DNA of 64,000 nucleotides from Sneathiella glossodoripedis JCM 23214 (GTDB lineage Bacteria; Pseudomonadota; Alphaproteobacteria; Sneathiellales; Sneathiellaceae): NCBI RefSeq assembly GCF_000616095.1, contig NZ_BAMS01000001.1, forward strand, positions 1,240,001 through 1,304,000, given 5' to 3'. Positions 9,681 to 23,103 of this stretch are shown here, in pieces (position 1 is the stretch's first letter; each line of letters opens with the position of its first letter). Below the pieces are notes generated by a model. That model saw nothing but the letters and a program-made list of their open reading frames with translations. It searched no databases and was not told the origin of the DNA. Position numbers and translations under genes: made by a program.

Positions 9681-9755
9681 TGGGGTGTCGCCAAGTGGTA
9701 AGGCAACGGGTTTTGATCCCGTCATGCGCAGGTTCGAATCCTGCCACCCCAGCCA
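9681..9755 (+). tRNA. tRNA-Gln (anticodon TTG)
   Basis: A full cloverleaf can be drawn: acceptor TGGGGTG pairs with CACCCCA, the anticodon loop TTTTGAT presents TTG, the T arm has GGTTCGAATCC, and the encoded CCA ends at 9755. Its 3' 18 bases are repeated at 19268-19285 and form the left attachment site of an island. The tRNA itself remains intact. Confidence 0.97.
9738..9755 (+). repeat. attL core: 18-bp 3' end of tRNA-Gln
   Basis: The sequence atcctgccaccccagcca is found here and again at 19268-19285 in the same orientation. Extending left, three more bases match except for one A/G change. A tyrosine integrase gene starts 59 bases downstream, the usual arrangement of a tRNA-targeting island. 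Confidence 0.92.
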
Positions 9756-9813: not shown

Positions 9814-11601
9814 ATGGGTAATTACGGTATGAAGGTCACACAAAGGTACCACAAAGGTACCACAAAGCGCCCCCCTCACTTGTACCAGAAAGGTGCACTG
9901 TACTATTACAGGAGAAGACTTCCTTCCTTTCTTGGTCGTAGTGAAATTCGATTATCACTGAAGACCAGAGATTTCTATGAAGCTGCGTTTCTTTGTAGGA
10001 TGTTGGAAGGTAAGTTCGTCGAGTTTCTGAGTGCGAATAGCAAGAGTGCCGATCTGAAAATGAGTAATGATGAATTTGAGAGAGTTGACCTCAAGCCAAT
10101 TCTCAAAAAGTGCCTAGAAGAGTTCCTTGAAGTTGATGCAGATCATCATCGTGAAGCGCCCCCAAGAAAGCCCCTGTACGGCGGAAGGCGCCATAACATC
10201 GATCAGACGGTTCAAGACGTAGACATCGAAACACTCTCCCTTCTGCGAGGTGATTATAGAGATGCTTTACGTGACCGAAACACGAGGCTCGTTGAAAAAC
10301 AAGCTCTCGCGCTTATGGAACGCCACAACATCCCAATTGAACAGCAGACTGAATTTTCACTTGGATTACTGAAAGTGCTTCTCGAATATAGTTCAATCGC
10401 CGTGCAAAGGGTTGAGAGTTTTGGAGATGTCCCATGGTTACCCAAAAACTCCCTTGAAATGGAAACAGGTGGAGAACCAGAAAGTAGCGAGGGAAATGGC
10501 CCTCTACTGTCAACACTGTTACCGGACTACTTCGACCACCAGTTGACGGAAACTGGCTGGAGTCAGCAAACTTTGAAACAGAATACGGCTACGATTGAGC
10601 GGTTCATTGAATTGGTAGGCGACAAACCCATTCAGTCTTATCAGCGTGAGCATCTTGGTGAATTCTATACCGTCGCCCTGAAAGTTCCCGCAAAATGGGG
10701 ACAGGTTCCTGCATGGAGAGAGATGAAATGGAAAGACTTAGTCGAAGCGACAAAGGGTGATGACACCATTCCACGGCTCACAAAGAGGACGTTGGAGCGA
10801 CATTTTCATGCTTTAGGAGGGCTGTTCAAGCACTTCAAACAACTTGGAAAGTACGTGGGAGAGAACCCAGCGAGTGGCTTTACTTTTCCTAGTGGAAAGA
10901 ACAAATCAGTGACATTGGGGTTTGATCGGCAAGAGTGGAAAGGTGAAAAGATCGTGAAACTTTTTGGTTCTCCTCTTTGGCAGGGCTGCAAAACTGAAAA
11001 TAAGCGATACTTGAAGGGGGAACTGGTCATCAAGGACGAGAAATTCTGGTTGCCTCTGCTTGGTCTGTACCATGGCAACCGATTGGAAGAGTTTGCTCAG
11101 CTGACCCGAAATGATCTAAAGCTGGAGAATGATATCCCTTATTTTGATATTCAGGATGTACTGGAGGGCAACCACTTGAAGAACAAGCAATCTGCAAGGC
11201 GAGTTCCAGTGCACCCGACTTTGATCGATTGGGGGATTATTCAATATATCGAAAACGTCGCCCCTAACCCTGCTGATCGGATTTTTCCTAATCTTAGACG
11301 CGCAGGACCTGACCAAAAGTTTGGAGTAAACTTTTCAAAATGGTTCACGCGGTATCGGCAGAAGATCGGAGCCTATGAAAGAGGTGTTGATTATCAGTCA
11401 TTCCGTCATGGCGTAGTAACGAAACTTCATGATGCTGGAGTGGCATCAGTGGTGGTGAACCAACTTGTTGGTCATGAAGGGCAGGGAACAGGCGAAAAGG
11501 TTTATCTGAAAGGGCTTTCCATTGAGAAGCTCCATGAAGGTATTTCACGGGTGAGTTGGCCTGAGGTTGAGAAGCTGTTTGTAAAGGTTCAAAAGTGCTA
11601 G
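9814..11601 (+). CDS. tyrosine-type site-specific integrase of a tRNA-Gln island
   Basis: A 595-residue phage-type recombinase that would integrate and excise the island at tRNA-Gln. The N-terminus (HLYQKGALYYYRRRLPSFLG) is the usual opening of large alphaproteobacterial island integrases. A core-binding SAM-like region lies around residues 230-360, and the catalytic domain around 390-580. Catalytic residues visible are R423 (GNRLEE), R531 (QSFRH), H554 (LVGHE) and nucleophile Y564 (EKVYLKG). The usual His of HxxR is Q528 here. Start is the ATG at 9814, or 9829; both place the arm repeats in the coding region. There is no frameshift, so it may be active. Confidence 0.93.
   Translation: MGNYGMKVTQRYHKGTTKRPPHLYQKGALYYYRRRLPSFLGRSEIRLSLKTRDFYEAAFLCRMLEGKFVEFLSANSKSADLKMSNDEFERVDLKPILKKCLEEFLEVDADHHREAPPRKPLYGGRRHNIDQTVQDVDIETLSLLRGDYRDALRDRNTRLVEKQALALMERHNIPIEQQTEFSLGLLKVLLEYSSIAVQRVESFGDVPWLPKNSLEMETGGEPESSEGNGPLLSTLLPDYFDHQLTETGWSQQTLKQNTATIERFIELVGDKPIQSYQREHLGEFYTVALKVPAKWGQVPAWREMKWKDLVEATKGDDTIPRLTKRTLERHFHALGGLFKHFKQLGKYVGENPASGFTFPSGKNKSVTLGFDRQEWKGEKIVKLFGSPLWQGCKTENKRYLKGELVIKDEKFWLPLLGLYHGNRLEEFAQLTRNDLKLENDIPYFDIQDVLEGNHLKNKQSARRVPVHPTLIDWGIIQYIENVAPNPADRIFPNLRRAGPDQKFGVNFSKWFTRYRQKIGAYERGVDYQSFRHGVVTKLHDAGVASVVVNQLVGHEGQGTGEKVYLKGLSIEKLHEGISRVSWPEVEKLFVKVQKC
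9832..9867 (+). repeat. tandem arm-type repeat at left island end
   Basis: Two exact 11-bp copies of aaaggtaccac (9842-9852, 9853-9863) follow a degenerate third copy (aaggtcacac). The 20-mer at 9834-9853 recurs at 19165-19184 with one mismatch. The spacing from the core repeat is similar at both ends (about 79 and 82 bases). This suggests integrase or excisionase arm-binding sites. The repeat lies inside the first codons of the integrase gene. Confidence 0.6.
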
Positions 11602-11730: not shown

Positions 11731-12075
11731 ATGACAGGTAGGAAGCCAAAACCACCTTCGATCTGGTCATTTTCAGAGTTCGTCAAATCTATTAAGCTAC
11801 ATCGAGAAGAACTGAAGCGAGATAGGGTTGACGGACATAAAGCTAAAGTGCTGCGACTATCTCGAGAAATTAAAGAATATGAAAATCCGGAGCTCAAGGT
11901 CGCACGTGAAAAGGAAGAAGCCAGACGTTACGGTCTTGAATATAGAAAGTACGGAATTTCTCCAGGGCTTCATATGTTCATGATCGAACTATGGAAGCAT
12001 TTCATAATCCCAAGTGTTATTGTTTTGGTTCTCGGTGGTATACCAATGCTCTTCGTTGCGTGGCTAATTCAGTAG
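11731..12075 (+). CDS. small protein with C-terminal membrane anchor, unknown
   Basis: A 114-residue protein I do not recognise. The first 80 residues are highly charged and helical (KLHREELKRDRVDGHKAKVL, then KVAREKEEARRYGLEYRKYG). They are followed by one hydrophobic segment (FIIPSVIVLVLGGIPMLFVAWLI) at the end, as in a tail-anchored protein with its head in the cytosol. It lies alone in the island between the integrase and a thermonuclease-like pair. The codon pattern looks like that of its neighbours. Confidence 0.6.
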   Translation: MTGRKPKPPSIWSFSEFVKSIKLHREELKRDRVDGHKAKVLRLSREIKEYENPELKVAREKEEARRYGLEYRKYGISPGLHMFMIELWKHFIIPSVIVLVLGGIPMLFVAWLIQ

Positions 12076-12255: not shown

Positions 12256-12459
12256 ATGATTTTTAGTGCGTTGCGTAGTTCAGATTTGTCTGGAAGGCCC
12301 ACGACAGTAAATGAAAGTACTTTTTACCCTGATTTTATTTTTGAGAGATTGCTCAATGATATCATTCATCTTATAATTGCAGAAACGAGAATGCACTGCT
12401 ACACTCCTTCAATCAATTTTAAGCAATTCAAACGCGACTGCAGATCCATCACGCCATGA
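12256..12459 (+). CDS. small hypothetical protein coupled to the SNase-like gene
   Basis: A 67-residue frame starting at an ATG preceded by AGGAG at about 12245-12249. Its stop overlaps the ATG of the next gene (ATGA), which suggests coupled translation. The sequence (YPDFIFERLLNDIIHLIIAE) contains one amphipathic or hydrophobic stretch. No family is recognised. A longer frame from 12199 lacks a good ribosome site. It is moderately likely to be real because of the coupling. Confidence 0.45.
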   Translation: MIFSALRSSDLSGRPTTVNESTFYPDFIFERLLNDIIHLIIAETRMHCYTPSINFKQFKRDCRSITP

Positions 12460-13106
12460 AGAATTTCCTAATACGAGTTATGATTCCTCTCATTTTGCTC
12501 GGTACCCTTGCGTACAAGTTTTCCCCGGTATCGGAACGAGTTTCTTATATGGTGGGAGCCCCGCAATATGTCCTGTCAGGTACCCTAGAACGAAAAGGCT
12601 TGAACACATTTGACATTGACGGAAAGCGCATACTTATAGTCGGGGTGGGGTTCCCTAGAGCCGACCAAACATGCATTCAAGACACGGAACATCCCATGTT
12701 CTCCTGCTTAGAACGCTCTACAGAAATGACAACGGAGTATTTACCAGAGACACCAGTGCGTTGCGACGTTCTGTTTGAGCTTGGCAGCGACAAAGTTGGA
12801 ATTGCCAATTGCTTTGATGGTGACATCAACATAGGCGCTGAACTCATCAAAAGAGGTATCGCATATGCTGAACGTAGATTTGCAGGGGGGATATACCTCC
12901 CAGAAGAATATTTGGCAAGAGTCAAAGAGGTTGGCCTGTGGTCGAACTACCATATGCACCCTGAGGACCATCGAGTACAAAGACAAGAAGCAGAAATGCG
13001 ATACCGAGCAACCAGACACCTTGGATCAAATGGCCCAAAAATCATTGAACACTTTAGAAAAAAATATGAAACAGACGGAGGGCTAATCAAGCCTCAAGAT
13101 GAATAA
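12456..13106 (+). CDS. membrane-anchored SNase-fold (thermonuclease-like) protein, probably inactive
   Basis: A 216-residue protein with one N-terminal membrane segment (IRVMIPLILLGTLAYKF). It is followed by a staphylococcal-nuclease-like domain: the QTC...C...VRC cysteine pattern, GAELIKRGIAYAERR and GLWSNYHMHPEDHR all match alphaproteobacterial thermonuclease-family proteins. Aligning on PxxxQTC, the catalytic Arg, Asp and Glu of the RLxGIDAPE motif become Leu, Gly and Arg (VGVGFPRADQTC). Nuclease activity is therefore doubtful; a binding role is possible. It overlaps the small gene upstream by four bases. Confidence 0.65.
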   Translation: MKNFLIRVMIPLILLGTLAYKFSPVSERVSYMVGAPQYVLSGTLERKGLNTFDIDGKRILIVGVGFPRADQTCIQDTEHPMFSCLERSTEMTTEYLPETPVRCDVLFELGSDKVGIANCFDGDINIGAELIKRGIAYAERRFAGGIYLPEEYLARVKEVGLWSNYHMHPEDHRVQRQEAEMRYRATRHLGSNGPKIIEHFRKKYETDGGLIKPQDE

Positions 13107-13368: not shown

Positions 13369-13830
13369 ATGAAATTTTTAGCTATATTTGGAATTGCGAG
13401 TTTGTTGATAGGTTGCGCATCAACGAATACTGGATCATCAGTAAACTCTCTTACAGAGTCATTGGTAAACTCGTATTTGACCGAAACAAACGGAAGATTT
13501 CCAAGAGTGGAAAGGGCCCTCGTATTTGTTAAAGCCACACAAGAGGACAAAGAACTGATCACCCACGTACTTCACGCTGTCCCCGGAAAATCAAAAGAAA
13601 TGCGAATGCCTCAAAACGAGTACACTGATAAATTGCGTGAGGAGTACCTTTGGACATGCACGAACAAAAATTTTTACGCTCTAATCAATTCAGGTTACAG
13701 CTTCCACCTGAAGATCATTGACTACAGAGGCAGCACTTCAGCTCTAAGTCATTCAGAACTCAGTACAATCGACATCACGCAGCAATTTTGTGATTTTACG
13801 CATATGAAGCATCAAACAAAACGTAGTTGA
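13369..13830 (+). CDS. small lipoprotein, paralogue of the gene at 20287-20733
   Basis: A 153-residue protein with a lipoprotein signal peptide (LAIFGIASLLIGC, cysteine at residue 16). The mature part is of unknown function. It shares a pattern with the lipoprotein encoded at 20287-20733: a YLxxxNxxxP segment, a long beta-like stretch, LRxxxLxxCxN with an (A)LxxxG after it, then a last cysteine near the end (ITQQFC versus VFRDYC). The two cysteines may pair in the periplasm. It is preceded by a weak aaggca ribosome site. Confidence 0.6.
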   Translation: MKFLAIFGIASLLIGCASTNTGSSVNSLTESLVNSYLTETNGRFPRVERALVFVKATQEDKELITHVLHAVPGKSKEMRMPQNEYTDKLREEYLWTCTNKNFYALINSGYSFHLKIIDYRGSTSALSHSELSTIDITQQFCDFTHMKHQTKRS

Positions 13831-14493: not shown

Positions 14494-15093
14494 ATGAAGA
14501 TCGGATATGCACGAACAAGCACCTTGGACCAACTTGCTGGGTTCGAAGCACAGGTGAAAGAATTGGAAGCCTTAGGGATCGACAAGGTATTCAAGGAACA
14601 AGTCAGCGCTACAAGTAAACGTCCTGAATTAGAACGTGCACTGGATTATCTGCGTGATGGGGACACCTTGGTTGTCACTAAATTAGATCGGCTTGCCCGA
14701 AGTGTGAAACATCTCGGGGAAATCGTAGAACTCATTGAAAGCAAGGAAGCTCACCTTCGCATTCTCAATCTTGGCATCGACACTAGCGAACCTACGGGAA
14801 AACTCGTGCTGAACCTGCTTGGCTCTGTTGCTCAGTTTGAACGGGAGATGATGCTAGAGCGCCAACGAGAGGGTATCGCCAAGGCGCAAGCAGAGGGAAA
14901 ATACAAGGGACGTCCTGCCAAGATCGACAAGGAAATGATCATCCAGCGCCATGCAAACGGTGAAAGTCCAACTGCGATTGCAAAGGAGATGGGGGTGAGT
15001 CGAACGGCAGTCTACAGGGCACTTGGTCGGGTCACAGATAAGCGCCCCGAGAGAAATCTGAAAGCCATACAGGGAGCTGAAACAGGCTCCTGA
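14494..15093 (+). CDS. serine recombinase (resolvase/invertase family)
   Basis: A 199-residue small serine recombinase. The catalytic Ser is S9 in YARTST, with the canonical KLDRLARS motif near residue 65, the QFEREMMLERQREG helix, and a C-terminal helix-turn-helix (SPTAIAKEMGVSRTAVYRAL). Such enzymes resolve multimers or invert segments. Its length and motifs are complete. Upstream heptamer repeats may be its binding site. The island already has a tyrosine integrase, so this gene more likely maintains or rearranges the element, or comes from an older plasmid or transposon. Confidence 0.92.
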   Translation: MKIGYARTSTLDQLAGFEAQVKELEALGIDKVFKEQVSATSKRPELERALDYLRDGDTLVVTKLDRLARSVKHLGEIVELIESKEAHLRILNLGIDTSEPTGKLVLNLLGSVAQFEREMMLERQREGIAKAQAEGKYKGRPAKIDKEMIIQRHANGESPTAIAKEMGVSRTAVYRALGRVTDKRPERNLKAIQGAETGS

Positions 15094-15185
15094 AGCCGGT
15101 GGATCCGTCACTGAGAAGGGCAACCCATGGTACCCTGCCAGTTTCTCAAAAATGCTAGATCGACTTTAAAATCAAATTAGTTTGC

Positions 15186-15491
15186 CTAAACTTCATTTAA
15201 TTCATCCGGTCCTTGCTGAATTGACCAAGTGGATACAAAGTCTGGGTCCACAACGATCTCATCACTGTCCTTCATTTGATACTCTCCCGGCTCCGCTGGA
15301 TGGATGGCTTCTTCATCGAAAGGAATGGAGAACTCTTCTCCATTATCTTCTCTCATAAACCACACAGTCTCTTCACCCACAGCAGTAATTTTGCCGTGCA
15401 GTTGGAGCCTTTCTGTGATTTCCCCTTCTCGGTCAAAATACGTAAGCCCTACCAAAAGATGCTTTCCAATGAGCTCTTTTTTCATATTCAT
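15186..15491 (-). CDS. uncharacterised 101-residue protein
   Basis: A small acidic protein on the minus strand, with many charged residues and predicted beta structure: VGLTYFDREGEITERLQLHG, then KITAVGEETVWFMREDNGEE, then EPGEYQMKDSDEIVVDPDFV. I have a sense of a widespread family of about 100 residues with the AEPGEY...VVDPDFVSTW ending, but cannot name a function. It has no signal peptide or membrane segment. It faces away from the polymerase-like gene at 15762. Confidence 0.6.
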   Translation of the reverse strand: MNMKKELIGKHLLVGLTYFDREGEITERLQLHGKITAVGEETVWFMREDNGEEFSIPFDEEAIHPAEPGEYQMKDSDEIVVDPDFVSTWSIQQGPDELNEV

Positions 15492-15585
15492 CCCCGAAGT
15501 CTTTCACCAATAACAATACGCTACCTTTGAGTGCGTAAATAAGCAGTTAACACACCAAATTTTCCATTCTTTAATAAGTATCCCC

Positions 15586-15601
15586 CTTAGGGGAGGACAC
15601 T
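15586..15601 (+). repeat. short hairpin before the polymerase-like gene
   Basis: A CCCC-CTTA-GGGG stem-loop lies here. A similar CCCCT-CATT-AGGGG hairpin lies on the far side of the polymerase-like gene at about 17283-17296. The role is unknown. Confidence 0.35.
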
Positions 15602-15761
15602 TAATGCCCTGCTTCTCCCACCTTGTCTCGCCACCATTGTTTCCAGTCTTTTCTCATCATTCCGAATAAACCCCCACCTTAGTAGAACCGCTTACCACTC
15701 CCGAAAAGATTCTCGTTCTACGTAAAGACATTCACAACTCAAACCTACACTAGGAGAACCC

Positions 15762-17042
15762 ATGAAACCTCCTCAAAGGGCATTCAATCCATGGCGAAGA
15801 GCCAAATCTGAGAGCGCCAAGACCCTCGTGCAACTGATCACTAAAACCATAGAAGAACACGAGAAAGCTCAAAAACTCAGAACCCGAAAGCGAAGAGCAG
15901 CAGATCAATTGACATTTGAGAATATCGTAGAGGCCATCATCATGGACATTACTCACTGTCACTTGATCGGCATCCATCAAGGGATCCACATGAGCTTCTC
16001 CAACAGTCGCCTTGGGGTGAAAAGCAGGTATCGTCCTGAGGTTCTGTCGCAAACTCTCCCAACAGTCGTCCAGCGCCTCTCGATGCCTGAACTCAATTAC
16101 GTCATCTTTCAAGTTGGTGAGAACGGCAAAGGAAAAAGCCGTCAACAGACCTCCGTTAGTATCGGGCCTCAACTGAAGCATCTGATCCATGAGATGGGTC
16201 TCACGTTGCAGGATATCGATGAGAGCCTTGATCGAGAAAGCATCGAGTTGAGAGAACCTAAAGACCGATCAGCCTCTTCCCGAGGGCAACCCATCGAGTA
16301 CACCGACAGTGAAATGACAGAAGCATTGCGAGAGGAAATGCGTTCTATCAATGAGTGGCTTCAAGAAGCGGACTTGCAACTTACCTCCAACTCATGCAGT
16401 CAATCAGCAAACAACTGGATCAATGACGAAGAAAGGTTCCTTAAGCGTATCTTCACACATGGTTCATTTGAATCTGGAGGGCGTCTTTATGGGGGATTTT
16501 GGCAACAACTTAGAAAGACAGAAAGATTTGAGGGCTTGACGATACAGGGAGAAAGGATTGCTGAAGTCGACTATGGACAAGTTGGTTTACGGATCGCGTA
16601 CAGTTTCGCAGATCATCATCCCCCTTCAGATGACTTGTACGAAATACCCGGGCTTGAGAATTACCGACAGGGAATAAAGAAATTGTTGAATGCCATGCTA
16701 TTCAATTACGGGCCTCTAAGAAGGAAACCTTACGGGACCAAGAAGATGTTACCTGTCAATCAGTCCGTTTCCTCTTTGCAGGAAGCCATTATCCAAAAAC
16801 ATCAGCCCATTGAAGACCTCTTTGGAACGGGCATCGGTCATCATATTCAACGGATTGAAAGTGACATCTTGGTAAAGGTCCTTTTGAAGCTCAGAGAGGA
16901 AGGCATCGTATCTCTACCCATTCATGATGCTGTGCTGGTGCCTCGTTCAACTGTAGACATCACTTCAAGGATTATGCTTGAAGAATTTAAGGGCCTGACA
17001 GGCATCCAAGGTTCGGTATCTGTCAGTGTAGGGGATGATTGA
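15762..17042 (+). CDS. compact polymerase-A / T7-RNA-polymerase-like palm protein, unassigned function
   Basis: A 426-residue protein not annotated in any system I know. Residues 225-395 match the polymerase palm of the DNA polymerase I / T7 RNA polymerase superfamily. Upstream of motif A is SFESGGRLYGGFWQQL. Motif A is AEVDYGQVGLRIAYS with D270. Motif B has R302 and K306 (RQGIKKLLNAMLF) with F314 at the Tyr766 position. Motif C is PIHDAVLVP with H388-D389. The Glu710 steric-gate position of Pol I is G275. There is no exonuclease domain; residues 1-220 are unrecognised. Both catalytic Asp are kept, so polymerase activity is plausible. Whether it makes DNA, RNA or primers is open. Confidence 0.6.
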   Translation: MKPPQRAFNPWRRAKSESAKTLVQLITKTIEEHEKAQKLRTRKRRAADQLTFENIVEAIIMDITHCHLIGIHQGIHMSFSNSRLGVKSRYRPEVLSQTLPTVVQRLSMPELNYVIFQVGENGKGKSRQQTSVSIGPQLKHLIHEMGLTLQDIDESLDRESIELREPKDRSASSRGQPIEYTDSEMTEALREEMRSINEWLQEADLQLTSNSCSQSANNWINDEERFLKRIFTHGSFESGGRLYGGFWQQLRKTERFEGLTIQGERIAEVDYGQVGLRIAYSFADHHPPSDDLYEIPGLENYRQGIKKLLNAMLFNYGPLRRKPYGTKKMLPVNQSVSSLQEAIIQKHQPIEDLFGTGIGHHIQRIESDILVKVLLKLREEGIVSLPIHDAVLVPRSTVDITSRIMLEEFKGLTGIQGSVSVSVGDD

Positions 17043-17503
17043 GAGGGATAAAAAGGAATACCCTTCCGTCTTATGGTTTTCCATTGGATTAATTGTCTGA
17101 CGACAATGAATTCATAAGTTACTTCAGCAAAGTGTACATGGCCTTTAAAAGACTCTTAAAAGACATCCTTTATATATTTCTGTAAGAGCATAAAGAGGGA
17201 TACTCCTCCTTATGATATTATTATAATAATAATAATAAATTTCAGGGTCCCTTCAAGACACCCTATATAAATCTATAGGGCACCCCTCATTAGGGGGAGT
17301 GGTAAGAATTGGCAGCTATCTCTCTCGATCATTTTACCTAGAAAAAACAGATGAATCCTAAAACCGCCCCAGAGACTCCGTGAGTCCATCTGGCAGCTCT
17401 GAGCACCCCCTACCTCGAAATCACCTCAATGCCCCCTCAGCGACTCTCTCTGGGACTCTGAGGGCGTGTCCATGTCTCTTGCATACGGAAAACCTTCAAC
17501 TAA
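17043..17503. other. AT-rich, hairpin-rich non-coding stretch after the polymerase-like gene
   Basis: No gene is seen. It holds an ATA-type microsatellite (17214-17239), a perfect CCCTATA...TATAGGG hairpin (17261-17280, loop 6), a CCCCT-CATT-AGGGG hairpin (about 17283-17296), and a CCCTCAG...CTGAGGG inverted repeat (about 17444-17465). The clustering of AT-rich DNA and hairpins beside a polymerase-like gene could mark a replication origin or a structured RNA, but nothing proves it. Confidence 0.4.
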
Positions 17504-17722
17504 CTTCAAGAAAGTCCCAACTGGAAGAAGAAGGGCTGGAAGAACTCCAGTGGTGACCCCGTCAAGAACCAAGACCTGTGGCAACGGCTGGAGGCAGCGA
17601 AGGAGAACTATCAGGTGTCCTTCAGGTGGGTAAAGGGGCACTCGGGGGTGCCCGGAAATGAGAGAGCTGATGCATTGGCTGCGTCAGGATGTTCGACTGA
17701 CAGCAGCAAGTTTACTCTCTAA
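17504..17722 (+). pseudogene. C-terminal fragment of ribonuclease HI
   Basis: The plus frame from 17519 reads [57 protein letters not shown] and ends at TAA 17720-17722. This matches the last half of RNase HI, including the KGHxG histidine and the NERAD aspartate. The frame is closed upstream by a TAA at 17501, and the N-terminal half with the other catalytic Asp and Glu residues is absent. It is therefore a broken gene. Its end overlaps the tail of the nuclease gene on the other strand by 39 bases. Confidence 0.75.
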
Positions 17723-18370
17723 CTCTTCGACCATTTGCTCAACTTGAGTGATTACATTCTCAGGGGAAATGAATTCTCGCGGGGGTTCAAACCACAAGCC
17801 ATTATCTGCCGTGAAAGGATAGTTTCCCCTAAAAGCTCTCGCTAATATATCGCTGCAGAATTCTAAAATATGGCTGCCGGAATAACCTATTGATCCCACT
17901 TCTGGACGCAATCCAAATCTTATCCTATTTTCTTTCGAAATGTCCCAATAAGCAGAATGACAATTATCTAGCCGATCATGAAGTTCTCTCATTCGCATAG
18001 CGAAAATGTCGTTTTTTGCACTAGATTCGAGGCCTTTCAGAGAACTAAGTTGTATGTTTGTTAAGTTTGCTGCTTCAAGAGCACCACTCTGAAAACCAGA
18101 CTCAGATAGCAATATGCCTCGGTCCGCACCCAAATCTGAAACAATGGTTCGCAATCCAAGTACATGAAGTTTGGAAATTGGTGCGCTCCATAACTTGCAT
18201 TCCACGATCCAAGTAACTTCAAAACCTAAATGCTCCGATCTGACAAGCACATCAACGTCGTGCTTTGTCCTAGCGCCCTTCATTGTAACATCGGTGGCTG
18301 CTTCCAAACCAAGCGACTGAAAGAACCCTGCAGTGTCTTCTTGATACTGCTTCCATTCAGGTGATGGCAT
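17684..18370 (-). CDS. Mrr-like PD-(D/E)xK nuclease
   Basis: A 228-residue protein with the restriction-endonuclease-like fold near its N-terminus: KHDVDVLV (D38, D40), then WIVECKLW (E57, K59), which is the PD-(D/E)xK metal site seen in Mrr-type nucleases. A conserved [20 protein letters not shown] segment follows, as in Mrr_cat proteins where it shapes the active site. The C-terminal half is unassigned. It follows the HEPN-like gene by 60 bases on the same strand, so the two probably form an operon. A DNA-cleaving defence role is likely; the trigger is unknown. Confidence 0.75.
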
Positions 18371-18430: not shown

Positions 18431-19033
18431 TCATTTCTCTACAATCATAGTTTCTGCAATATTTATCATTTCTTCAGCATAATTAATCGCTAGGCTTGCC
18501 ACTGAAATTGGATCATTTTGATATAGCTCTGTATCTAAATGAGAAGTTGGTACCGGAAATCTTTTTTTTGAACGTTGGCAAGTCACATCCACAAGGTAGA
18601 TTCCTGGAGCGTGAATCCTAAAAAGCTCTTCACCAGCTTTAGCATTCGCGGGAGCTATCACTTCTAATCGATTGTCTTTATGGCCTGACCTGACTACTTT
18701 GGCACCTTTTCCTACCGCTTCAATTCTGAATCCGGTCTTATCAGTTGTACCGATCAACGTATGCTCTTCGGAGTTACGTGCTTGTTGAACATATGAGAGA
18801 AGTGGATCAGTTCTCCTTTCATGTTTGATCTTGTCATACCAAGCCTTACTTTTGCTATCTGCTTTGGCGCCTTGCTCTAGTTTTGAAAAAATAGTGTTCA
18901 ATAAATTTAGAAAATCTTCCCAAGAAGCTTCAAATTCTTCGAAAGAGAATGAGCGATCTTTAATCATTTGCTCAAGTTTTTCTTTGGAACGGTTCAAGCG
19001 CCCCTTTGCATCCTTCACTGCTTTTGCTTCCAT
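18431..19033 (-). CDS. HEPN-like protein with RNxxEH motif, probable RNase
   Basis: A 200-residue protein of a family found widely but not characterised. The N-terminal 95 residues are helical (LNRSKEKLEQMIKDRSFSFE, FLNLLNTIFSKLEQGAK) and end in YVQQARNSEEH, where R86 and H91 form the Rx4-6H motif of HEPN ribonucleases. The C-terminal half is beta-rich (TGFRIEAVGKGAKVVRSG). HEPN proteins act as RNA-cleaving toxins in toxin-antitoxin, abortive infection and CRISPR-linked systems. It is the first gene of an apparent operon with the PD-(D/E)xK nuclease. Confidence 0.55.
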   Translation of the reverse strand: MEAKAVKDAKGRLNRSKEKLEQMIKDRSFSFEEFEASWEDFLNLLNTIFSKLEQGAKADSKSKAWYDKIKHERRTDPLLSYVQQARNSEEHTLIGTTDKTGFRIEAVGKGAKVVRSGHKDNRLEVIAPANAKAGEELFRIHAPGIYLVDVTCQRSKKRFPVPTSHLDTELYQNDPISVASLAINYAEEMINIAETMIVEK

Positions 19034-19267: not shown

Positions 19268-19285
19268 ATCCTGCCACCCCAGCCA
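19268..19285 (+). repeat. attR core: 18-bp copy of tRNA-Gln 3' end
   Basis: An exact direct copy of 9738-9755. No tRNA body lies upstream of it, so this is the duplicated end left by integration. It sets the island as about 9.5 kb. Confidence 0.92.
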
Positions 19286-19360
19286 ACCTTCCAAATCGCA
19301 CTATTCAGCCATTCAAGGTCTCTCGATAACCAAGTTTTAGGCTTGTTCACTGCCAATTGC

Positions 19361-19379
19361 GGGAACATTGTGGGAGCAT
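19361..19379 (+). repeat. tandem decamer 76 bases right of attR
   Basis: gggaacattgtgggagcat is an imperfect tandem repeat (GGGAACATT / GTGGGAGCAT). It has the look of arm sites of a different integrase family and sits at the same distance from attR as the left arm sits from attL. It may be left from a second element at the same tRNA. Confidence 0.3.
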
Positions 19380-19397
19380 GTCAAACTCAAGATGGCC

Positions 19398-20219
19398 CTA
19401 AAGTTTCTCCTGATTAGAGGGATCATCTTCTGACGCTGTCAATTTGAAGCCAAAATCACCAAGAACTAACGTGACTGAAATTGAGGTGTAAACAGCATAG
19501 AAGAAGAATGAGATAGTTTGTCTAACTGGTTGGAAATAAAAATAGACTGTGTCATATCCAATTTTGCTTGTTAAGTTAAATGCACGAGCGAGTTCCACAG
19601 CTCCAATGGCAAACAAAAATTCAATACTAACCAGCATAACTAAGCCAACGAATATCGCTACGAAAGTCATCAAGAACGGGATTGGAAGTGTTTCATTCAA
19701 GCCAATTGATTTGGGGAGATTGCTAGGCTTCACATTCTTAATGACGAATATCAATGAAGTGAGCGTCACGGTAATCGGAATGGTATGCAAGTGACCTTGG
19801 TTGCTCAATAGATTGAGGTAGTAGGTGAGGTCATCACGAACGGGTAAATTTGAAAAGATACTTTTATATGCTAGGCAGAACGCTACAGAGATCGCAACAA
19901 TTAGAGGTATTAAAGTAAGCGAAAATAAGGGGTATTGAGTGCGAAGGCCATGTTTTGCCGCTAAGTTTTGCTTCAATAAAAAAAGGCACCACACTAACAA
20001 ACTGAAAGAAAATGCAATTGCATGACCATAGATGACAAAGCTTATTTGTCCAAACAAGCCGAGTATCTTGTGGTCTGGATATATCGAGTTTAGTGAAATA
20101 CTGCTTATTATCGTAAAGGGTAGCCACGTGAGTAAGCACATCCACGCATTTTGGTTTACGATGCGAATAGATGGTTTTATTGAAGCAAGTAATTTGTCTT
20201 TGTAAGGATGGTTAGACAT
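19398..20219 (-). CDS. polytopic membrane protein, unknown
   Basis: About 273 residues with roughly six hydrophobic segments (for example LTWLPFTIISSISL, FVIYGHAIAFSFSLLVWCLF and FVAIFVGLVMLVSIEFLFAIG). I do not recognise the family. The start is placed at the ATG 20217-20219 because AAAGGCAACG precedes it; a longer frame from 20258 lacks this. It lies just outside attR, beside a lipoprotein gene on the same strand, so the pair may be accessory genes from another element. Confidence 0.6.
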   Translation of the reverse strand: MSNHPYKDKLLASIKPSIRIVNQNAWMCLLTWLPFTIISSISLNSIYPDHKILGLFGQISFVIYGHAIAFSFSLLVWCLFLLKQNLAAKHGLRTQYPLFSLTLIPLIVAISVAFCLAYKSIFSNLPVRDDLTYYLNLLSNQGHLHTIPITVTLTSLIFVIKNVKPSNLPKSIGLNETLPIPFLMTFVAIFVGLVMLVSIEFLFAIGAVELARAFNLTSKIGYDTVYFYFQPVRQTISFFFYAVYTSISVTLVLGDFGFKLTASEDDPSNQEKL

Positions 20220-20286
20220 CGTTGCCTTTAAGCATAAGAGCAAACTCCCCTTTTCCAATAAAGAGAAATTATAGGGTAGCTAAGGG

Positions 20287-20733
20287 TTAACGTTGTCGTG
20301 CACAGTAGTCACGAAATACAGGTGATAACCTTCCATCCTTTTCGTTGGGGTCTCGAGTTACAGTTCTGGTGTAGAAGTTAATGCCCTCTTTAAGCAATGC
20401 TAGATACATTGGGTTCAGGCATATCTTGCGGAGTTCGTAAGTGTAGAAAACCCTATCACTGGCAATCGCAGACTTATAGTTGTCGTACACAAAAGTTGTG
20501 ACGATATCATTACCCACCAAGTCAACGCTTTGAATAGTCAGAACATCAACAGTTTTTGGAAGGTTGCTGTTTGCATCCTTGAGATACTTTGCCACAAGCG
20601 GACTCAAACGTTCATTTGTTTCAGCTGTTGCCGTTTTAGAAACTGCATGAGATTTATGGGTACCATTCGTGTCGCTCGAAGTAGTACAGCTTGTCAACAA
20701 TAACAGCATGACGAAGGGATAAAGCAGCTTCAA
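20287..20733 (-). CDS. small lipoprotein, paralogue of the gene at 13369-13830
   Basis: About 148 residues. I chose the TTG at 20733 because GGAG lies just upstream and it yields a clean lipoprotein signal peptide (YPFVMLLLLTSC); the frame extends to 20751. The mature part shares a layout with the island lipoprotein at 13369-13830: YLKDANSNLPKTVDVL, then VFYTYELRKICLNPMYLALL, then KEGINFY and a terminal DYC. The cysteine pair is conserved between the two. Function unknown. It precedes the membrane-protein gene on the same strand. Confidence 0.6.
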   Translation of the reverse strand: MKLLYPFVMLLLLTSCTTSSDTNGTHKSHAVSKTATAETNERLSPLVAKYLKDANSNLPKTVDVLTIQSVDLVGNDIVTTFVYDNYKSAIASDRVFYTYELRKICLNPMYLALLKEGINFYTRTVTRDPNEKDGRLSPVFRDYCARQR

Positions 20734-20751
20734 TGTAATTCTCCAACTCAA

Positions 20752-21213
20752 AAGGGGCAGTACGAAGAGGTCATAAAATCAACTTCTCTTGTTAACTACA
20801 GTAATTTTTCCAAGCTTGTCATATCGAGTAGGTGTTGTGCAATTAAGAATTGAGTATTCTGTATACTGATGCTCTTCCAATTCTAAGTTCTTTGGCTATC
20901 TTCGTTGCCCTTTGAGGTCTCTACAATGTCTCCTGAGTACCTAATAGAGCGTACTAGGTGGTCTAATTGGTTCGCGACTTTGGTATACTAGCGCCAACTA
21001 AGAGGTAATTTTATGCTTGAGGCAGTTCCTGCCACTGTTCTTAACTATTAGTTATAGGTAAGCTTCCATTCAGAGTTCGCTCCTGTAGTAAATTCAAAGC
21101 GCAATGTACTGTAATTGCCTTCTCCGCAATGGAATGTGTTCGGCCTTTTCATCTGGGGGGCAAGGCGTTAGACTGCGGGACTTTTCTACTTATTGATATT
21201 GTGAGGGCGGGTT
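20752..21213. other. non-coding stretch between accessory genes and lemA
   Basis: No substantial gene is seen. A 12-codon frame (21013-21051, MLEAVPATVLNY) has an AAGAGG ribosome site 7 bases upstream and a TATACT hexamer at about 20988-20993. It could be a leader peptide but has no clear target. No third copy of the tRNA-Gln core repeat is present. Confidence 0.35.
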
Positions 21214-21780
21214 GTGTTGACGTTTTTTATTGTCGCGGGTGTTGTTCTGGGGCTGGTATATGGCTGGTATGCAACGATTATTTCGCGTCGCAACAAGGCT
21301 CTTGAGGCGTTGTCAGGGATTGATGTGCAATTGCAGAAGCGATCCGATTTGATCCCAAGTATCCTGAAAATTGCCAAGAAATTCATGGAGCATGAAAAAG
21401 AGCTGATCACAGAGGTGACAGAGCTTCGTACCCGAATGGAGGCTGGATATGACGCGCGCGACCCAAACGCGGTCGGGGAGCATTTGCAGGCCGCTGAAAA
21501 ATTGGGCGGTGCTATGGGGAAGCTGATGGTCGCTGTGGAAGCTTACCCGGATTTGAAATCCAGTGACAACATGGTGCAGGCGCAGCGGACCTATAATGAG
21601 GTTGAGGCGCAAATTTCGGCCGCACGTCGGTTTTATAACGCGTCTGTCTCTCAGCTAAATACATCAATTCAAATATTTCCGGGCACGTTTATCGCGCAGA
21701 TGGCGGGTGTTGAGCCAATGCCATTCTACGAGGCGGATGATGGGGCAAAAGCGCCTGTAGATGCGAGCGATTATCTGTAA
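21214..21780 (+). CDS. LemA family protein
   Basis: A 188-residue LemA protein with one N-terminal membrane segment (FFIVAGVVLGLVYGWY), followed by helical arms: NKALEALSGIDVQLQKRSDL, then the conserved RTYNEVEAQISAARRFYNAS and a Phe-Pro region (IQIFPGTFIAQMAGVEP). The start is a GTG with gagggcggg upstream. It is followed by a DUF3137 gene after 3 bases, a common pairing. The cellular role of LemA is unclear. Confidence 0.93.
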   Translation: MLTFFIVAGVVLGLVYGWYATIISRRNKALEALSGIDVQLQKRSDLIPSILKIAKKFMEHEKELITEVTELRTRMEAGYDARDPNAVGEHLQAAEKLGGAMGKLMVAVEAYPDLKSSDNMVQAQRTYNEVEAQISAARRFYNASVSQLNTSIQIFPGTFIAQMAGVEPMPFYEADDGAKAPVDASDYL

Positions 21781-21783
21781 TCC

Positions 21784-22815
21784 ATGGGGCATTTTAATAA
21801 TATTCTGAGCCTGTTGACGGGGAAATATCGCACGTTCAGCGGTTTGCCAGTCGACTTCACCGAAGCCAGGGATTATGAGGCGGGTTTTGCCGCTCATTAT
21901 GACGCCTATGTACGGCCTCATGTGGATCAGTATGAAGCCAACCGTCTAAAGGCGTTAAAGGCAGCAACGACCCGTTGCCGGGCAAGTGTCATGCTGTTTC
22001 TGACAGTCATTCCGCTGTTGCTTGTGTTTGTTGCGCCCCACATGTCGGACCCGGAAGATCTTATTCTGTTTATTGTGGTGCCGATGGGGTTTGCTGCCGT
22101 TGTCGTATATTATCCAATCCGTTGCTATAAGAGAAATGTCAAGACTGGCGTGTTTCCGGACATCATCTCATTTTTAGGGGATTTTTCTTATTCACCCAGT
22201 TGCCCTGGCCGAGTAAAGGGTCTAGAGGCAACCGGCCTTGTTCCCAGCCATGATCGGGAGACGAGCGAAGATGAAATTCGTGGAGTTTACAAAGGGGTCG
22301 CGATTGATTTTTTCGAAACGCTCTTAAAGAGACGCACTCAGGATAGTAAAGGGCGAACAAAATATACGACGGTTTTCGACGGCATTTTTATTTCCCTGTC
22401 CTTTCAAAAACCTTTCCGGGGGCGAACACTTGTTCAAAAAGACAAGGGGCGTGTTGGAAACTGGTTTAAGAATACTTTTGGCTCACTGGAGCGGGTCGCG
22501 CTGGAGGACCCTCATTTTGAAAAAATTTTTGAGGTTTACAGTGATGACCAGATTGAAGCCCGGTATTTATTGACCCCTTCCTTTATGGAGCGGCTGAAAG
22601 CGCTTAGTGAGAATTTTGGCGGGCGCGATTTGGAATGTTGTTTTTACCGCGAGCAATTGGTGATCAAACTCTCCATGAGGGAAGATTTGTTTGAGCCCGG
22701 ATCCATTTTTATGCCTGAGGATTTTATGGATGACGCGAGGCGGATACTGGCTGACATGCAGCATATTTTCGCTGTCGTTGATGTTTTGCAACTGGACGAA
22801 AATACCGGTCTGTAA
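21784..22815 (+). CDS. DUF3137-type membrane protein
   Basis: A 343-residue protein with two central membrane segments (SVMLFLTVIPLLLVFV, then LILFIVVPMGFAAVVVYYPI) at about residues 75-115. A C-terminal cytosolic domain carries the DUF3137 features (GVYKGVAIDFFETLL, FDGIFISLSFQKPF, FEVYSDDQIEARYLLTPSFM). The family usually lies next to lemA, as here. No function is established. Confidence 0.88.
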   Translation: MGHFNNILSLLTGKYRTFSGLPVDFTEARDYEAGFAAHYDAYVRPHVDQYEANRLKALKAATTRCRASVMLFLTVIPLLLVFVAPHMSDPEDLILFIVVPMGFAAVVVYYPIRCYKRNVKTGVFPDIISFLGDFSYSPSCPGRVKGLEATGLVPSHDRETSEDEIRGVYKGVAIDFFETLLKRRTQDSKGRTKYTTVFDGIFISLSFQKPFRGRTLVQKDKGRVGNWFKNTFGSLERVALEDPHFEKIFEVYSDDQIEARYLLTPSFMERLKALSENFGGRDLECCFYREQLVIKLSMREDLFEPGSIFMPEDFMDDARRILADMQHIFAVVDVLQLDENTGL

Positions 22816-22824
22816 GAATTCTTT

Positions 22825-23103
22825 TTATGACAGTTTGGAGTGAGTGCCGTCGCAATAAGGGGGCGTTTTCGTTTGTTTGCAAAGGCACAGGGCTACTGGT
22901 TTTTCACGCTTGCAAGTGAACTCAACAGGTTCGAAAGGAGTGTCTTTGTGGGATCCATCGCAAAAAGGTTGTTTTGCTGATTTCCCGCACTGGCACCACC
23001 AGTATGTTTTCCCCATATCCAGTTTGAGAATTTTAGGTTTCCTGTCCGCGATCTGAGGTTTTGTCATATGTTTGCTGCCCGTTTGTTCAATTGGGTTGAT
23101 CAT
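22825..23103 (-). CDS. CDGSH iron-sulfur protein, two-motif type
   Basis: A 92-residue protein with two CDGSH-type [2Fe-2S] sites: CQCGKSAKQPFCDGSH, then CLCKQTKTPPYCDGTH, each with the 3Cys-1His ligand set. Bacterial tandem CDGSH proteins handle Fe-S or redox balance. A later start (MTKPQIADRK, 12 residues in) would also make a good protein. It stands between DUF3137 and fadD. Confidence 0.92.
   Translation of the reverse strand: MINPIEQTGSKHMTKPQIADRKPKILKLDMGKTYWWCQCGKSAKQPFCDGSHKDTPFEPVEFTCKREKPVALCLCKQTKTPPYCDGTHSKLS

Follow-up and report, generated by a model that had tools for sequence, protein, structure and literature searches.

Background

TV-Pol was named in 2008 by Iyer, Abhiman and Aravind (Biol Direct 3:39; PMC2579912), who predicted both primase and polymerase activity for it. 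The protein is characterized by a family A-like palm, a hairpin arginine and a fingers aspartate together with an RxxxK motif, and it sits in mobile elements with a gamma-delta resolvase and a lambda-type integrase. Its hosts include many alphaproteobacteria, of which Loktanella vestfoldensis was named for a D5-helicase neighbor (PMC2579912). Phage relatives from Barbavirus and other phages were described as divPolA2 (Virol J 2024 21:200; PMC11348598). Passages of that paper leave the role of divPolA2 open between a repair polymerase and an RNA polymerase; TV-Pol appears there a single time, as background, and is not equated with divPolA2. CCPol of SCCmec has been characterized by experiment and synthesizes de novo primers with its partner MP, using only dNTPs under the conditions employed (in part of PMC7581432, eLife 2020). 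The same part reports that CCPol retains the equivalents of Glu710 and Phe762, by which Pol I discriminates against ribonucleotides, and that it has an alanine where other PolA-like enzymes carry a catalytic glutamate, in a passage that does not say which one. Nearly all known primases belong to the DnaG or AEP families (according to a passage of PMC10061031, Front Mol Biosci 2023), and a PICMI-like satellite of Vibrio combines an integrase, AlpA and a primase (in an excerpt of PMC10803314).

A compact polymerase gene in Sneathiella glossodoripedis

The window analyzed here is a stretch of 64,000 nucleotides from Sneathiella glossodoripedis JCM 23214. Its open reading frame at positions 15762-17042 of the forward strand encodes a compact polymerase of 426 residues, which was assigned to the TV-Pol type on the basis of the PHROGs family phrog_4756, an AlphaFold2 model and fold matches. 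The frame starts with ATG and is preceded by the motif AGGAGA, which ends four bases before the start codon. A scan for promoters and terminators stayed near the level of shuffled sequence. The only clear PHROGs family for the protein is phrog_4756 (E 5.8e-28, residues 53-415), whose function is unknown, while the best matches in Pfam and NCBIfam (E 0.11 and 0.36) are both to unrelated families. Within Pfam, neither PF00476 (DNA_pol_A) nor PF00940 (single-subunit RNA polymerase) matched at E up to 1, and a sequence search of solved structures gave no real match. A second host Pol I was ruled out, as PF00476 matches the genome once at E 0.001, in a separate gene elsewhere that encodes the host Pol I, and the family profile matches once, at the window polymerase.

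The preliminary description of this DNA had placed a set of Pol I-like catalytic residues in the protein, and all of them were located at the positions claimed: D270 (16569-16571) and G275 (16584-16586) in motif A, R302 and K306 (16665-16679) with F314 in motif B, and H388-D389 (16923-16928) in motif C. Motifs A and C are separated by only 118 residues. Upstream of motif A, R241 (16482-16484) lies in a GGR(L/F)YGG hairpin on a predicted strand (residues 239-244), in the place of the template-contacting arginine of family A. The reported absence of an exonuclease domain also fits, with residues 1-158 forming another, winged-helix-like domain; a fused nuclease domain was found neither by Pfam nor among the listed structure matches of the N-terminal part.

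A tRNA-Gln island carrying the polymerase

The gene had been placed in a tRNA island, which was borne out by an exact 18-bp repeat of the 3' end of a tRNA-Gln. This tRNA gene (anticodon TTG, 9681-9755, forward strand, ARAGORN) ends with the first att repeat (9738-9755), and the second copy (19268-19285, same strand) marks the right end of the element. The 9.5 kb between the repeats encode a tyrosine integrase with a DUF6538 N-terminal domain (9814-11601, forward; PF20172 E 1.6e-10, PF00589 E 4.3e-6), a small serine resolvase (14494-15093, forward; PF00239 E 8.5e-41), the polymerase, and small genes of unknown function. The cargo includes an Mrr-type restriction endonuclease (17684-18370, reverse; PF04471 E 1.6e-11) and a protein of unknown function that matches phrog_23516 (18431-19033, reverse; E 1.6e-16). 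Across the whole genome, two DUF6538 integrases and three resolvases were counted.

Comparison with congeners places the boundary of the element at the tRNA. In each of the 25 matches other than the window's own, DNA similarity stops at query positions 756-760, which correspond to the tRNA 3' end. In one congener (G005) the tRNA-Gln is not followed by any island protein, and fadD, which also lies downstream in the window, is found about 3 kb on. In another (G018), an integrase that is 36% identical to the window's (L129, 3086-4150) directly follows the same tRNA-Gln, and a 25-bp repeat of the tRNA end lies about 24 kb on, so that this site holds an element of another kind. The site is thus used by other elements too.

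No helicase domain was recognized by Pfam in seven proteins of the element and the frame at 11731, nor in the 153-residue frame at 13369, which was compared with PADLOC only. Iteron-like repeats were absent from positions 15000-17700. Suspected paralogy of the small frames at 13369-13830 and 20287-20751 was dropped (E 0.32). A protein of 216 residues (12456-13106, forward) matches nothing in Pfam even at E 1; it presumably resembles a staphylococcal-nuclease-like fold. Beyond the right att repeat, the region up to fadD (19286-23100) holds a membrane protein, a small frame and others, among which we take some to be LemA-like and CDGSH proteins. These genes have no match in the congener stretch L126, and the region is therefore possibly a further, older insertion.

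Distribution and conservation of the family

The family was detected in 11 of the 142 genomes of the window's genus and class and, within the genus, in 3 of 24 genomes including the window's own. A scan of a species-genome collection yielded 232 confirmed relatives, of which 80 were kept. Of two viral scans, the first, which used the window protein as its sole query, returned no relative and the second returned six. By tblastn, 157 phage records matched, from phages of Rheinheimera (115), Vibrio (39), Aeromonas (2) and Shewanella (1). Kinship with divPolA2 was seen in a phmmer search of a small set of frames with the window protein (Barba1A, E 2.6e-7; KASIA, E 2.8e-13) and by tblastn, where the Barba and KASIA proteins matched at 1e-4 and 2e-7. 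Phage matches of the window polymerase in BFVD ranged from E 1e-21 to 6e-17. Plasmid records with a family match numbered three for each of two queries, and as all of them are about 128 kb or larger, the idea that the polymerase serves as the only Rep of a plasmid found no support.

Conservation was analyzed in 95 full-length members, in rows of 380-700 residues obtained from matches to open reading frames. The catalytic set is invariant or nearly so, with D270 and R302 present in 95 of 95 members, K306 in 94, and H388 and D389 in 93 each; the hairpin R241 is kept in 94 and the fingers aspartate D291 in 91. Nearly all homologs thus retain both catalytic aspartates, a point on which the preliminary description had made its reading depend, and a chance coincidence of short motifs is ruled out by this conservation together with the fold. 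The members that deviate at R241, K306 or motif C are the very divergent L011, L056 with an unaligned C-terminus, and L061, which has HN in motif C. The frame in L011 (706-2061) keeps the N-terminal part of the family, and its palm lacks the hairpin arginine, the motif B lysine and the motif C histidine; this polymerase is possibly an inactive derivative. At least two family copies, of which some are fragmentary, occur in L104, L030, L067 and L026, as well as in Yoonia (L057 and L064) and HTCC2083 (L041 and L042).

Predicted fold

An AlphaFold2 model built on a 77-row alignment reached a pLDDT of 94.7 and a pTM of 0.92, and it falls on family A polymerases, as expected for the palm fold that the preliminary description had proposed to check. 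The 50 Foldseek matches listed from the PDB, of which the best has E 1.2e-6, all belong to family A DNA polymerases. In VIA-align, the apicoplast polymerase apPol (5dkt) gave a Z-score of 14.9 (rmsd 3.8, 250 residues), and not far below came yeast mitochondrial RNA polymerase (8c5u; Z 13.9, rmsd 3.4, 244 residues), which is level with many DNA polymerases at Z 13.6-14.3. The fold alone can therefore not tell a DNA from an RNA polymerase, which agrees with passages of PMC11348598, where the divPolA2 authors likewise could not separate the two by fold. The matched part consists mainly of residues 157-426.

The N-terminal domain (residues 1-158; 15762-16235, forward strand) was modeled with a pLDDT of 94.5 as a mixture of helices and strands. 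Its best match in VIA-align is the N-terminal domain of T7 RNA polymerase (Z 6.2, rmsd 3.6, 107 residues), and many winged-helix regulators and some ribosomal and other chains follow near Z 5. Foldseek returned nothing below E 0.4, and no OB-fold protein was recognized among the listed structure matches. In view of these weak matches, the modeled domain is described as winged-helix-like and no more.

The sugar-gate position

In T7 RNA polymerase, Gly542 occupies the place of Pol I Glu710, and the exchange Y639F relaxes sugar choice. The preliminary description had placed G275 of the window polymerase at the same position and had taken F314 for a second relaxed gate of the Y639F kind. The first placement is borne out by the register of a profile-profile alignment with host-type Pol I. 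When the family was aligned by hhalign with 18 Pol I polymerase domains, 31 columns around motif A were matched (E 8e-4, with a probability of only 24.6) and DYGQVGLR was laid on DYSQIELR, which puts G275 in the place of Glu710. The argument from F314 does not carry, since position 314 is asparagine in 68 of the 95 members and phenylalanine in only 9, and hence not a family trait. Position 310, which by spacing corresponds to Phe762 of Pol I, is an asparagine in the window protein.

A family-wide check of the gate, as had been proposed, revealed glutamate in none of the 95 members. The position holds His in 41, Ala in 11, Gln in 10, Gly in 9, Asn and Phe in 8 each, Ser in 4, Trp in 2, and Leu and Met in one each. 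For the Pol I control, which comprised the window's genome and 29 genomes of its class, a pattern that left the gate position free matched 29 of 30 loci, and all 29 contain Glu. All 21 relatives with at least 31.7% identity to the window protein have Gly, Ala, Ser or Asn at the gate, and the next relative by identity, L065 (31.5%), has Trp. On a quick maximum-likelihood tree, computed with the gate column masked, three gate states (small, His and other) require 15 changes compared with at least 36 in 200 shuffles, with the small state also taking in Asn and Ala rows from other lineages. The gate residue accordingly goes with lineage, and seven rows with Phe cluster in a separate clade. The placement of the window row is weakly supported, and no starred set contains it. 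L065 shares a group (SH-aLRT 92) with L049 and the window protein and is one of the two nearest companions of the window row, so the small gate holds by identity rank (21 of 21) and not for every neighbor on the tree.

In the open literature searched, including the text of PMC2579912, no discussion of the gate was found for the branch with the fused N-terminal domain, and the word 'steric' has no occurrence in the available text of PMC11348598.

Elements of the relatives

A scripted search found repeats of tRNA or tmRNA ends flanking the polymerase in 26 of 108 loci, the window included, many of the 108 being cut contigs or too short for such a search. As about 92 words of 14 bases compared with 20 kb lead to an expectation of approximately 0.007 chance repeats per tRNA and locus, a few of the shortest repeats (14 bp, L100) may be due to chance. 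The 71- and 66-bp repeats of L094 and L113 could be tRNA duplications. The 26 bounded elements span 4.8-18.6 kb and use tRNA genes for Gln, Met, Leu, Ser, Pro, Ala, Thr, Tyr, Val, Cys, Phe and Gly as well as tmRNA as targets. In the neighborhood check suggested earlier, apart from the polymerase, which is present in all 26 by construction, the cluster-1 integrase occurs in 20 and the resolvase in 16, and every other cluster in at most 4. For 90 family loci without the window, the fetched stretch contains the same integrase in 42 cases and the resolvase in 30. As the only other gene that is widely shared, the polymerase is most likely responsible for initiating or carrying out replication of the excised circle.

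A scan of 134 cargo genes identified parts of type I, II and III restriction-modification systems, transposases and one DncV-like CBASS gene; the cargo families reported are the best 25 of 70, 81 and 223, each in 5 or fewer. The 'DNA helicase' family phrog_16 was matched by 4 of the 134 cargo proteins among the matches listed, as was ResIII, and the phrog_16 matches are possibly restriction subunits. In 11 loci, the polymerase is adjoined on the same strand by a cysteine- and histidine-bearing protein of about 230-260 residues (for example at 11454-12170 in L069 and 7079-7852 in L027), which in 10 of the 11 lies within 125 bp of the polymerase or overlaps it. Two of these neighbors gave no Pfam match at E 0.01. 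The protein is a candidate polymerase partner in one branch.

A second neighborhood was compared with the published family. The polymerase of locus L057 shares 38% identity with that of the window, and a DUF5906 gene (E 8.6e-21) lies downstream of it. The locus comes from Yoonia vestfoldensis, which we take to be the organism formerly called Loktanella vestfoldensis. With this synonymy, the DUF5906 neighbor fits the pair with a D5-like helicase in the TV-Pol paper, and the L057 polymerase is presumably the published TV-Pol gene itself.

Possible roles of the polymerase

Taken together, the window element is bounded by att repeats, encodes an integrase and a resolvase, and carries a polymerase with a fused N-terminal domain. 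The model and the alignments indicate a palm of the family A or single-subunit RNA polymerase type that has its catalytic residues and lacks the glutamate gate. The protein is probably a TV-Pol that replicates a small integrative element. The recombinases give the element its presumed mobility: the integrase would excise it from the tRNA-Gln, the polymerase would then prime and extend DNA on the circle, and the resolvase would split the dimers that replication produces. The winged-helix-like domain may serve to grip the template strand or the origin, a job that falls to the separate protein MP in the case of CCPol in SCCmec. The small gate residue (Gly) suggests, though less strongly, that the active site can accept ribonucleotides, at least for the first nucleotides of a primer. 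Against a primase-polymerase stand the lack of a recognized helicase in the element and of iterons around the gene, the relatives in phages equipped with another replicase, the lack of a confident match for the N-terminal domain, and the use of dNTPs for priming by CCPol. The island-borne primase or template-copying enzyme of the preliminary description stands as far as the predicted family A-type palm, the catalytic set, the missing glutamate and its place as the leading role are concerned. The enzyme is no isolated case, as the family had been published as TV-Pol in 2008 and divPolA2 in 2024.

Other roles were weighed against this one. A primer-dependent enzyme that uses dNTPs for gap filling or repair of element or phage DNA, without priming, would explain why DNA polymerases are the top structural matches listed, and it would suit the barbaviruses, which hold the polymerase beside a separate replicase and for which repair is offered by the divPolA2 authors (in parts of PMC11348598). 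As these genomes have their own replicase, the relative there is probably not the main one. In small elements, by comparison, a gene that is the only widely shared one besides the recombinases fits element replication better, and the glutamate gate is missing in 95 of 95 members, which makes a mere repair function rather unlikely. The missing gate would instead suit a single-subunit RNA polymerase for the transcription of genes of the element or of phages, a role that is also proposed in print for divPolA2 (in a passage of PMC11348598). It would be consistent with the closeness of the mitochondrial RNA polymerase to DNA polymerases by fold, with the T7 N-terminal domain as the best N-terminal match, and with hhalign laying motif C (LPIHDSFIV) on that of T7 RNA polymerase, although not significantly. 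We consider this role unlikely, because the hhalign comparison with the T7 enzyme reaches only E 0.22, a Z-score of 6.2 is no higher than common arrangements reach and has no Foldseek counterpart below E 0.4, and motifs A and C lie so close together. The window protein moreover lacks the PF00940 match that its phage relative KASIA shows weakly (E 0.16); a PF00940 scan of the 142 genomes, in which the controls gave no match either, was not counted as absence.

The gene might also be defensive cargo, with the polymerase acting against phages like polymerase- or RT-based defense systems. A weak PADLOC match to RTasPolA, which is listed with the DRT defense systems (E 0.0015), and the restriction genes and single DncV-like CBASS gene in the cargo of family elements point in this direction. 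The match is limited to the motif C end (residues 358-422), the polymerase is common to elements with differing cargo, in which no other non-recombinase cluster exceeds 4 of 26, and tailed phages carry it too, so that a defensive role appears very improbable.

A broader proposal is put forward tentatively. The TV-Pol branch with the fused N-terminal domain may comprise self-contained family A-type primases without the glutamate gate, whose gate has become His, Phe or a small residue depending on the lineage, so that they form a natural series from DNA-only to mixed-sugar or RNA priming, with the window enzyme at the open end. If true, priming by a family A polymerase without a partner would add another route to those of CCPol-MP and piPolB. 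The gate residues found allow sugar choice to be tested on variants that occur in nature rather than on engineered mutants, and the att-bounded elements suggest how small tRNA islands could replicate once excised.

Comparison with known systems

The closest described system is TV-Pol, with which the window protein shares the two palm aspartates, the hairpin arginine, the fingers aspartate with RxxxK and the lack of a nuclease domain, as well as an extra N-terminal domain (in a subset of TV-Pol), resolvase and integrase neighbors and a setting in restriction-modification islands. Differences are found in the D5-type helicase, which accompanies some TV-Pol members whereas none was recognized in the window element, and in the N-terminal domain (TV-PolN), which was predicted to be all-helical while the modeled domain of the window protein contains helices and strands; the sugar gate is not discussed in the TV-Pol paper (PMC2579912). 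The phage divPolA2 proteins, as described in passages of PMC11348598, resemble the window polymerase in length, fold, the N-terminal globular domain and the absence of a 3'-5' exonuclease, and differ in that they are encoded by phage genomes that have a regular replicase.

As described in part of PMC7581432, CCPol is likewise a family A polymerase of a mobile element, near recombinases. It needs a separate OB-fold partner, is accompanied by a helicase and keeps the gate glutamate and the Phe762 equivalent, whereas the window enzyme has G275, N310, a fused N-terminal domain and no recognized helicase. With regard to the traits of PolA-SSB primases, Pfam found no helicase beside the polymerase gene, whose neighbors are the resolvase, a frame of 101 residues and the Mrr endonuclease. 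The 101-residue protein (15186-15491, reverse strand, divergent from the polymerase) is weakly barrel-like, with faint SH3-barrel matches to the RimP C-terminal domain (PF17384, E 0.0056) and the RimM PRC domain (E 0.14), and could be either a polymerase partner or a host-like gene. The alanine of CCPol would be the residue after the motif C aspartate, in which case A390 of the window protein agrees. As CCPol used only dNTPs in the work excerpted and retains its glutamate, it neither confirms nor refutes the use of rNTPs by the window polymerase. Pipolins (in part of PMC7385651) are also integrative elements with their own polymerase, piPolB, which belongs to family B, whereas the window polymerase has a fold of the family A type. 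The logic of the PICMI-like satellite, as far as its excerpt goes, is similar to that of the window element.

The interpretation of the window polymerase is thus largely anticipated by the TV-Pol paper of 2008. Less discussed is the lineage-sorted absence of the glutamate gate, apparent from the alignments throughout the family, in a branch whose characterized cousin CCPol keeps this residue.
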